Positions 26,787 through 29,075 of a stretch of DNA of 64,000 nucleotides are shown in pieces. Source of the DNA: an uncultured Clostridia bacterium (lineage in GTDB: Bacteria > Bacillota > Clostridia > Christensenellales > UBA1750); contig CAJFMX010000002.1 of the NCBI GenBank assembly GCA_904393115.1, positions 1 to 64,000 on the forward strand, in the 5' to 3' direction. The translations under genes were made by a program, and so were the position numbers. The notes under the pieces were generated by a model, which worked only from the letters and a program-made list of their open reading frames with translations, was not told where the DNA came from and searched no databases. Every line of letters begins with the position of its first letter. The first letter of the stretch is position 1.

Positions 26787-28364
26787 CTACGGCCGGCGCA
26801 GTTCCACGCGCTGCGTCGCGATGCGGTCGCAAAACGCCGCATCGTGCTCGACAAAGACCATCGTCGGCTGAAACTCGAGGAGCAGGTTCTCGATCTGCAC
26901 GCGGGAGAAGATGTCGATGTAGTTGAGCGGCTCGTCCCAGACGAACAGGTGCGCCTGCGCGCAGAGGGAGGCCGCCAGCAGCGCCTTCTTCTTCTGCCCC
27001 TGCGAGAAGGCGGACAGGTCCTTTTCGAACTGCGCGCGCGCAAAGTCCAGCCGGCGCAGCGTCGCAAGGAGCAGCGTGTAGTCCACGCCCCGGGCCAGCG
27101 CAAAGTCCCGCAGGCTCCCGGAAAGCGCGCTGGCGTCCTGCTCGATGCGCGAGACGACCACGCCCGCGCCCACGCGCAGCTCGCCCGCGTGCGGCACGTC
27201 CTGGCCGAGCAGCAGGCGCAGGATCGAGGACTTTCCGCTGCCGTTCGGCCCGCAGAGCGCCAGGCGCTCCCCCTGCTCAAGGGAGAAGGAGACCGGGGCG
27301 AACAGCGGCCCCGACCCGTAGTCCACCGCGAGCTTTTCGGCATAGACCAGCCGGCGCTTGCCGTAGACGAGGGGATGCAGGTGCAGCGGCTCCTCGCGCT
27401 CCAGGTCGTGCAGCAGGGCCTTCTTTTCCTCGACGGCCTTCTCCCGCCGGGCCTCGATGTGCTTGGCGCGCTTCATCATCTTGGCGGACTTGGCCCCGAT
27501 AAAGCCGCGGTCCGCGGCGTGGGAGCCGATCTTGGAGGCCTCCACGCGGTCCGCCCAGTCCGCCTTTTGCCGGCCTGCCTGCGCAAGGCGCGCGATCTCG
27601 CCCTGCAGGCGCGCGTTCTCCTCCAGCTCGAATTGGTCGCGCGCGTCGCGGTTGAAGCGCCAGGAGCTGTAGTTGCCCTGCTGCACCTCGATGCTCTGGC
27701 GATTGAGGGAGAGGATGTGGTCGCAGGCGCCGTCGAGCAGCGCGCGGTCGTGCGAGACGAGGATGAACCCCTTCTTCGCCGCAAGATACGCTTGCAGCAG
27801 GCGTCGGCCCTCCGCGTCCAGGTGGTTGGTCGGCTCGTCGATGAGCAGAAACGCGTTCTTGCGCAGGAACAGCGCCGCGAGCTGGACCTTCGCCCGCTCC
27901 CCGGGGGAGAGCGTCGCATACGGCCGGTCCAGCGCGGCGGGGTCCAGGCCGAGCTTGCCGGTCTCTGCCAGCAGCCGCGCATCCAGTGCATAGCCGTCCA
28001 GCTCCAGGTATTCGCCCAGCGCCTCGGCGTAGGCCTGCGCGCCGTCCGGGTCCGCGAGGGCCGCCTCCATGCGCGCCTCCAGCTCCGCATAGGGCCCGGC
28101 GTGCGCCCGCGCGACCTCGCGCGCCGGCCGGCCCTCGTCCGGGACGGGGAAGGGGAAGAGGTCGAACGCGCAGGGCGAGACCACGCGCCCGGTCGCCCCC
28201 TCCATCCCCATCAGGATGCGCAGAAGGGTCGTCTTCCCCTTGCCGTTGCGGCCGATGAAGCCCAGCTTCCAGTCGGTGTCCAGGGTGAAGCTGACGTGGG
28301 AAAAGATCATCTCCCCACTGTCCGGATATTGAAAGGAAAGGTCGATGACCTGAATGGCTGCCAT
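26787..28364 (-). CDS. ABC-F ribosomal protection protein, Lsa/Vga-like
   Basis: 525 aa. Two ATP-binding domains on one chain and no membrane helices, as in ABC-F proteins. Walker A1 GRNGKGKTT (38-46) and A2 GPNGSGKSS, signatures LSPGE and FSQGQ, and the Walker B/H-loops DEPTNHLD...SHD and DEPLNYID...EHD are visible. A Lys/Glu-rich interdomain linker lies between the two cassettes (about 270-330). The Lsa-type layout suggests ejection of lincosamides, streptogramin A or pleuromutilins from the ribosome, but the drug spectrum is not readable. The ATG at 28364 follows GAGGAGGG. The 5' leader carries a short ORF and a terminator, the arrangement used for antibiotic-induced attenuation. Confidence 0.85.
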   Translation of the reverse strand: MAAIQVIDLSFQYPDSGEMIFSHVSFTLDTDWKLGFIGRNGKGKTTLLRILMGMEGATGRVVSPCAFDLFPFPVPDEGRPAREVARAHAGPYAELEARMEAALADPDGAQAYAEALGEYLELDGYALDARLLAETGKLGLDPAALDRPYATLSPGERAKVQLAALFLRKNAFLLIDEPTNHLDAEGRRLLQAYLAAKKGFILVSHDRALLDGACDHILSLNRQSIEVQQGNYSSWRFNRDARDQFELEENARLQGEIARLAQAGRQKADWADRVEASKIGSHAADRGFIGAKSAKMMKRAKHIEARREKAVEEKKALLHDLEREEPLHLHPLVYGKRRLVYAEKLAVDYGSGPLFAPVSFSLEQGERLALCGPNGSGKSSILRLLLGQDVPHAGELRVGAGVVVSRIEQDASALSGSLRDFALARGVDYTLLLATLRRLDFARAQFEKDLSAFSQGQKKKALLAASLCAQAHLFVWDEPLNYIDIFSRVQIENLLLEFQPTMVFVEHDAAFCDRIATQRVELRRP

Positions 28365-28405
28365 GCGGCATCCCTCCTCGCTTGCAAAAAAAGATCGAAC
28401 AAAGA

Positions 28406-28449
28406 CAAAAACGGGCCTGCGGAAAAGAACATCCGCAGGCCCGTTTTTG
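28406..28449 (-). terminator. Leader terminator (attenuator) of the ABC-F gene
   Basis: The stem CAAAAACGGGCCTGCGG / CCGCAGGCCCGTTTTTG (17 bp, 10-nt loop), T-rich on the minus strand, lies between the promoter (28616-28644) and the ABC-F start (28364). A terminator here would stop most transcripts before the gene. It fits attenuation; the antiterminator partner was not found by eye. Confidence 0.8.
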
Positions 28450-28560
28450 ACGAAGTGGGAGACGCCAATGCCCAGGGAATGCCCTCTTCCTGCCCCGCCA
28501 TGTTTTGCGCGCAAAAAATCGGGCGGAATTCCCCGCCGAAAGGATTTGCGTTCATGGCGC

Positions 28561-28581
28561 TCAGCAGCAGGCAGAAAGCAC
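28561..28581 (-). CDS. Putative leader peptide of the ABC-F attenuator (6 aa)
   Basis: Minus-strand GTG CTT TCT GCC TGC TGC TGA (VLSACC, read as MLSACC) has GGAGGG 6 bp upstream. The promoter start would be about 28609, so this is the first ORF of the transcript. Leader peptides of this size precede vmlR/lsa-type ABC-F genes, where ribosomes stalled by drug alter leader folding. Translation is inferred. Confidence 0.6.
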   Translation of the reverse strand: MLSACC

Positions 28582-28615
28582 GGCTTTCCCTCCGTTTCGT
28601 CTCGATTCGGGAACT

Positions 28616-28644
28616 AGGATAGCACAGACGGCGCGGCCTGTCAA
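28616..28644 (-). promoter_or_regulatory. Promoter of the ABC-F gene
   Basis: On the minus strand -35 TTGACA (perfect), a 17-bp spacer and -10 TATCCT (plus-strand AGGATA at 28616-28621). The -35 hexamer overlaps the stop codon of the upstream hypothetical gene at 28641-28643. Confidence 0.85.
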
Positions 28645-29075
28645 GCGCAGCCCGCGCGCAGGGCCGTGGAGTAGAGGGAGATGCGCGCGTCGTACGTCAA
28701 GCGGTACAGCCCGGCGCCCATCTCGACCGCGCAGCGGGGATAGAGGTCGCAGCTGCACTGCAGCTGGCAGCCGAAGCGCATCTTTTCCTCGGAAAACGGC
28801 GTGCAGAGCGCGGCGGAGAGGTGCACCTCCGCGCGCTGGGCCGCGTCCCTGCCCACCACCATCACCGGCACGGTCAGGTCGTACACCCAGCGGCGCAGCG
28901 CAGGGTCCTCGGCGCTTCCCTCCTGGCCGCGCAGGGACGCGCGGCATTGGTCCCAAATGGGGTACATGCCCTCCACCGGCCCGCGAAGGCGCGGGCAGGA
29001 AACGATTTCGCTCCGCAGCAGGATCTCCTGGTGGGAGCGGTACAGCGTCGGTTCGCATTGCAGTTGCGGATGCAT
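28641..29075 (-). CDS. Hypothetical Cys-rich protein (144 aa)
   Basis: I do not recognise it firmly. 144 aa, no signal peptide or membrane helix. It has beta-rich stretches and Cys residues at QLQCEP, SCPRL, AALCTP, FGCQLQCSC, YPRCAV and AGCA. The alternating DLTVPVMVVG and LYRLTYDARISLY strands faintly recall SPOCS/DUF3794 spore-coat domains, which would fit a sporulating host, but this is weak. The ATG at 29075 follows TCAGGAGGAAAGAG. No operon with the ABC-F gene is needed, since that gene has its own promoter. Confidence 0.55.
   Translation of the reverse strand: MHPQLQCEPTLYRSHQEILLRSEIVSCPRLRGPVEGMYPIWDQCRASLRGQEGSAEDPALRRWVYDLTVPVMVVGRDAAQRAEVHLSAALCTPFSEEKMRFGCQLQCSCDLYPRCAVEMGAGLYRLTYDARISLYSTALRAGCA

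Follow-up and report, generated by a model that had tools for sequence, protein, structure and literature searches.

Drug-induced attenuators set when ABC-F resistance turns on. The stretch of DNA analysed here (the window; 64,000 nucleotides of contig CAJFMX010000002.1, assembly GCA_904393115.1, from an uncultured Clostridia bacterium) raises the question of whether the leader before its ABC-F gene is such a switch and, if it is, whether the signal resides in the leader peptide or in the leader RNA. The evidence set out below indicates that the leader ORF and the terminator very probably form an antibiotic-triggered switch before the ribosome-protection gene of this gut bacterium.

An Lsa-like ABC-F gene and the parts of its leader

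The gene (26787-28364, minus strand, ATG at 28364) encodes a 525-residue ABC-F ribosomal protection protein, as judged from NCBIfam models, a structure match and alignment. It passes the cut-off of the general ribosomal-protection ABC-F model NF000355 (425 bits against 380), and its best family match is the Lsa model NF000167, at 582 bits. The designation "Lsa-type" in the initial annotation is therefore right as to the nearest family but too strong as an assignment: because the score is under the curated cut-off of 750, we call the gene Lsa-like rather than Lsa. The closest solved structure is ribosome-bound LsaA of Enterococcus faecalis (7NHK). Both NBDs are intact and, by inspection, so are both signature and Walker B motifs. 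At the position of LsaA Lys244, mutation of which nearly abolishes resistance (PMC8196190), the aligned window protein also has a lysine; LsaA Phe257, which is dispensable (PMC8196190), is not conserved. An N-terminal in-frame extension from TTG 28514 was rejected because the relatives' N-terminus aligns from 28364.

The leader lies on the same strand and begins with a promoter of sigma-70 type (28616-28644), found by sequence scan and with a counterpart at the equivalent position in most relatives, with the -35 element TTGACA at 28644-28639, a 17-nt spacer and the -10 element TATCCT at 28621-28616, preceded by TG; a scan of 4 kb gave 2 promoter-like sites against 0.3 expected. Transcription would start near 28609. 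A Shine-Dalgarno sequence, GGAGGG (28588-28593), stands 6 nt before the leader ORF (uORF) GTG CTT TCT GCC TGC TGC TGA (28561-28581), whose six codons read MLSACC and whose GTG shares an alignment position with the ATGs that begin MHSSFC and MYYSLC in leaders from the same genus. The uORF and the bases near its Shine-Dalgarno sequence make up what we call segment 1. Segment 2, GGCAGGAAGAGGGCATTCCC (28475-28494), is by minimum-energy fold and duplex energies the partner either of the uORF region or of the terminator loop and 3' arm. Between the two lies a small hairpin, GGCGGGGAATTCCGCC (28513-28537), followed by TTTTTT, which may serve as a pause site comparable to the one in vmlR; of 71 leaders, 21 have a TTNTTT motif in this interval, where shuffles give 9.7. 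The intrinsic terminator hairpin (28406-28449; dG -35.0 kcal/mol) has a core, GCGGATGTTCTTT-CCGC, that is kept in same-genus leaders, and it contains segment 4, AUGUUCUUUUCC (28432-28421), the antiterminator partner predicted by folding. The Shine-Dalgarno sequence of the ABC-F gene, GAGGAGGG, follows at 28372-28379. The fold of the entire leader RNA, at -113.4 kcal/mol, beats 200 of 200 dinucleotide shuffles (z = -5.2).

The promoter, the GGAGGG-backed GTG ORF, the terminator and their order before the ABC-F gene had all been proposed in the initial annotation, and each part is found at its place. The terminator alone needs amendment: the hairpin is present, though its stem is of 18 bp rather than 17, and the T tract is interrupted, GTTTTTG belonging to the stem and being followed by TCTTTGTTCGATCTTTTTTT. 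An overlapping longer ORF (28307-28555, ATG) was rejected; it is without a Shine-Dalgarno sequence and would cross the terminator. Upstream of the leader is a co-directional ORF of 144 aa (28641-29075, minus strand) with no NCBIfam match, the stop codon of which falls within the leader promoter's -35 box; this gene is also found upstream in one of two close relatives (G002) and not in the other (G004).

The same arrangement precedes orthologous genes

About 120 relatives, their genomes mostly metagenome assemblies, were compared. An orthologue is carried by 3 of 4 other genus members (G001 lacks the gene) and by 8 of 10 other family members, as well as by 97/396 genomes of the order and 57/391 of the class sample, the window's own genome being counted in both of the latter. 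At each of these levels, the upstream regions contain a TTGACA-type promoter, a strong Shine-Dalgarno sequence, a uORF of 5-7 codons and, 20-60 nt ahead of the gene, a terminator. The comparison of relatives' leaders that the initial annotation had suggested thus shows promoter, short uORF and terminator recurring in one order, and since the relatives keep that order, the arrangement in the window is more than chance. The window leader can be aligned from end to end with its G004 and G002 counterparts at 69% mean column identity, and the terminator core GCGGATGTTCTTT is common to them; the same leader is found in G004 even though a tRNA gene lies upstream of it there. Terminator-like hairpins of -12 kcal/mol or lower were found in 64 of 73 leaders, compared with 9 dinucleotide shuffles and 3 reverse strands.

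The peptides encoded by these uORFs include MHSSFC and MYYSLC in the genus and MRNTSC, MRKTSC, MRNISC, MIKVSC and MRKLSC elsewhere. The pattern M-x-x-x-S-C-stop is seen in many relatives, among them 17 of 28 newly fetched class-sample loci outside the order; early-stop leaders and the uORFs of some distant relatives were assigned by eye, and such counts are approximate.

Two predicted, competing partners of segment 2

In the relatives' leaders, segment 1 begins immediately ahead of the start codon and extends through codon 6. Segment 2, located 60-100 nt further downstream, shows complementarity both to this stretch and to the terminator loop and 3' arm, that is, segment 4. Duplex energies reach p<0.05 against shuffles for the 1:2 pairing in 40 of 66 leaders and for the 2:4 pairing in 34 of 66. 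For the window itself, the 2:4 duplex has -27.1 kcal/mol (p = 0.017) and the 1:2 duplex -32.8 kcal/mol, which, at p = 0.20, is alone no better than shuffles of the GC-rich middle of the leader; in the minimum-energy fold the pairing is shifted, CTTTCTGCC being joined with GGCAGGAAG. In the nearest relative (G003, uORF MRFDR), the 2:4 pairing is not significant (p = 0.71).

Covariation was assessed in an alignment of 34 leaders that excluded the window's genus. RNAalifold, unaided, picks the core helix of 1:2 from this alignment. A fuller version of the helix has 80.3% of its cells paired, as opposed to 43-54% in slid versions, and 32 cells with changes on both sides, as opposed to 14.9 in shuffles; its covariation score was matched by none of 500 shuffles. 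These controls do not remove relatedness, although the leaders span many families and the slid versions retain it. Folds, duplexes and the relatives' covariation together describe an anti-antiterminator, an antiterminator and a terminator that are mutually exclusive, the window's own 1:2 statistic remaining weak.

The conserved Ser-Cys end as an RNA signal

The recurrence of Ser-Cys before the stop could reflect selection on the peptide or on the nucleotides that encode it. When codon 6 of the leader encodes Cys, that Cys is written TGC in 58/60 cases and Ser-5 is written TCT in 49/51; the adjoining ABC-F genes, by comparison, use TCT in 156 of 1386 Ser codons (~11%) and have 142 TGC among 239 Cys codons (59%). 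The Fisher p values of 2e-41 (TCT) and 1e-9 (TGC) are not corrected for kinship. In uORFs with a stop at codon 3 or 4 (MR, MHK, MRK, MI), the element keeps its spacing from the start codon: the hexamer TCTTGC persists past the premature stop in L027, L061 and L131, and TGC persists in L089, L106 and L107, with scores of 64.6 bits for L131 and 30.4 bits for L061 against the covariance model R1 described below. Where the hexamer is other than TCTTGC, its exact reverse complement is found downstream in the same leader in 11 of 40 cases, compared with a mean of 1.8 when other leaders are searched (maximum 6 in 300 draws). Because the hexamer is nearly fixed at the codon level, outlasts premature stops and, when varied, is compensated by complementary changes, we view the conserved Ser-Cys end as mostly a translated RNA-pairing element rather than a constraint on the peptide.

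Within the window's genus alone the peptides are MLSACC, MRFDR, MHSSFC and MYYSLC, and the presence of MRFDR in a relative with 83% protein identity argues against peptide sensing. The Cys-Cys end of the window's peptide had been put forward as a possible stall point; this is contradicted by that relative and by the retention of Ser-Cys elsewhere as the nucleotides TCTTGC, even after premature stops. More generally, the strong conservation of a "leader peptide" can stem from RNA pairing that is merely read as protein, which calls for caution where stall peptides are sought by sequence conservation alone.

The position of the element points to another site of stalling. It ends at a fixed position, 17 nt after the start codon, and this matches the leading edge of a ribosome that has the start codon in its P site. 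The vmlR toeprint is at +16 (PMC9226507), and in the tiaA and are5sc leaders pleuromutilins, lincosamides and streptogramin A cause stalling at the start codon (PMC12421871). Given the match between the fixed end of the element and the leading edge of an initiating ribosome, the ribosome most likely stalls on the start codon or immediately beside it, as for vmlR and tiaA.

A model for attenuation and its alternatives

Sequence comparison establishes which parts the leader has and how they are ordered, the conservation of the 1:2 helix, the complementarity of 2:4 that competes with it, the presence of the terminator and the gene-family specificity; in building a model on them we infer the transcription start, translation of the uORF, the position of the stall and the inducing drugs. 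When no drug is present, the uORF would be translated fast and the ribosome released, so that segment 1 could pair with segment 2; the terminator hairpin would then form and transcription would end before the ABC-F gene. Pleuromutilins, lincosamides or streptogramin A, by blocking formation of the first peptide bonds, would hold the ribosome on the GTG or immediately beside it, its footprint masking segment 1. Segment 2, thus freed, would pair with the terminator loop and 3' arm, no terminator would form and the ABC-F gene would be transcribed. The initial proposal of an attenuator before a drug-protection ABC-F gene is well supported by the conserved architecture, the covariation and the gene-specific distribution, and we are confident, short of certainty, that the leader is a ribosome-mediated transcription attenuator of the Lsa-like ribosomal protection gene.

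Three other readings have to be weighed against this. As with macrolide-type arrest peptides, the nascent chain, ending in Cys-Cys in the window and in Ser-Cys in relatives, might instead impose a peptide-specific stall at the end of the uORF. Although Ser-Cys before the stop does recur in dozens of leaders, the near-invariant TCT and TGC stand against the codon use of the adjoining genes, the hexamer or TGC remains after stops at codon 3 or 4, variant hexamers are complemented in their own leaders well beyond expectation, and peptides differ within the genus; we consider such stalling improbable. The hairpin might also do no more than terminate the upstream 144-aa gene at its 3' end, with the ABC-F gene served by another promoter, a reading that draws on the co-directional orientation of that gene and its end within the -35 box and that we judge slightly more improbable still: a good promoter lies between the 144-aa gene and the hairpin, G004 has the same leader downstream of a tRNA gene, and the leader model matches only before Lsa-type genes.

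Least probable, in our estimate, is a leader that acts mainly on translation, by sequestering the ABC-F start site, rather than on termination of transcription. The Shine-Dalgarno sequence of the window's ABC-F gene could indeed pair with the adjacent U-rich stretch ATCTTTTTTTGC upstream (the fold of 28356-28408 has -14.0 kcal/mol), and cplR and vmlR use both layers of control (PMC10201436, PMC9226507). This pairing, however, is not conserved in relatives and is not seen in same-genus leaders, whereas terminators are nearly universal.

A clostridial leader set and its occurrence before lsa(E)

The covariance model R1 was built from leaders of families other than the window's. Across 101 genomes, all 9 of its matches lie before Lsa-type genes, as determined by comparing coordinates with the list of orthologues, and the exact pattern TTTCTTGCTAA-N35-65-GCAAGAAAG has 6 matches in 297 genomes of the order, 6/6 in leaders of Lsa-like genes, with no control match. 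The window leader itself scores weakly against R1 (9.0 bits, E = 0.2); the match, at 28464-28595, is the best of 3 kb and has the right place and strand, and a whole-genome scan with R1 gave no match at the window leader. Two same-genus leaders reach E = 0.0017 (L005) and E = 0.015 (L006). At codons 5-6, where the set has TCTTGC matched by a downstream GCAAGA, the window has TGCTGC, for which no exact complement follows. As R1 is weak here and TCTTGC is missing, membership of the window rests on position and near relatives, not on the model, and its leader is best called a divergent, GC-rich member of the clostridial Lsa leader set.

The same leader precedes the plasmid-borne gene lsa(E). In L111 (NZ_KT448818.1, Enterococcus faecalis p12-7), TATAAT, GGAGG, the uORF ATG TAT AAC TTT TCT TGC TAA (MYNFSC, 638-658), TTGCAAGAAAGTTAAG and a terminator, GAGCCGTAAGAATTTACTTTCTTGCGGCTTTT, are all found upstream of lsa(E), and this leader matches R1 with 77.2 bits (E = 8.5e-17). 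It shares with the clostridial leaders the uORF, segment 2 and the echo terminator, and differs in being AT-rich and in having ~170 extra nt between terminator and gene; because these nucleotides resemble the leader of Bacilli lsa genes, the lsa(E) leader (L111 600-1000) may be composite. The leader stretch is at least 99% identical in 110 of 111 matching plasmid records, 102 of which have at least 80% of it, and the leader stands before plasmid lsa(E) in enterococci and listeriae. A different, second leader stands before the Lsa genes of Lysinibacillus and Priestia and before plasmid lsa(B) (L014, L019, L112, L108; last 160-400 nt). It has a uORF of 16-17 codons or longer with VTH..LRISR (MSDLDTIVTHVNLRISR) and a stem, GCCGACTTTGTATA...TATACAAAGGAGG, that could hide the gene's Shine-Dalgarno sequence, as in translational attenuation.

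No Rfam 15 family corresponds to the leader: at gathering score, nothing but tRNAs is matched in the window or at the loci of ten relatives. The literature searched, which did not cover Dar et al. 2016 or Vimberg et al. 2020, contained no description of the clostridial set or of the lsa(E) leader; searches on leader peptides and lsaE attenuation gave nothing relevant, and two papers on lsa genes mention no leader. The leader set to which the window belongs, spread across gut Clostridia, thus appears to be undescribed in that literature, as do its absence from Rfam 15 and its presence before lsa(E). On balance we lean towards a broader view: a Clostridia-wide family of RNA switches would control Lsa-type ABC-F genes by start-codon stalling, the pattern M-x-x-x-S-C would be shaped by RNA pairing within the footprint of the initiating ribosome and not by the peptide, and lsa(E) would carry a working copy, so that clinical lsa(E) resistance would be drug-inducible through a clostridial attenuator.

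Comparison with known attenuators

The vmlR leader of Bacillus subtilis (uORF MIN; Takada et al. 2022, PMC9226507) resembles that of the window in its promoter, its very short uORF within an anti-antiterminator stem, its pause hairpin (putative in the window), its choice between terminator and antiterminator and the drug-protection ABC-F gene downstream, and in both systems the identity of the uORF differs among species. The window's uORF, however, has 6 codons rather than 3, its ABC-F protein is Lsa-like (of the ARE3 kind) while VmlR is ARE2, and its pause-like hairpin sits between segments 1 and 2. The cplR leader of Clostridioides difficile (uORF MR[I/M]; Obana et al. 2023, PMC10201436) likewise combines a clostridial ABC-F gene, a short and often Met-Arg-initial uORF, a terminator and a three-way RNA switch, but it serves another ABC-F subfamily and its terminator itself sequesters the gene's Shine-Dalgarno sequence. 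For lsaA, whose product is the nearest solved ABC-F relative (7NHK), a leader with a uORF of consensus MAGN has been predicted (PMC10201436); the window's uORF is not the same, and because the homologues in that prediction are at least 80% identical to LsaA, clostridial Lsa-like genes fall outside it. The mechanism proposed here is that of the vmlR, cplR and predicted lsaA leaders, and the window leader would therefore be an attenuator of a known kind.
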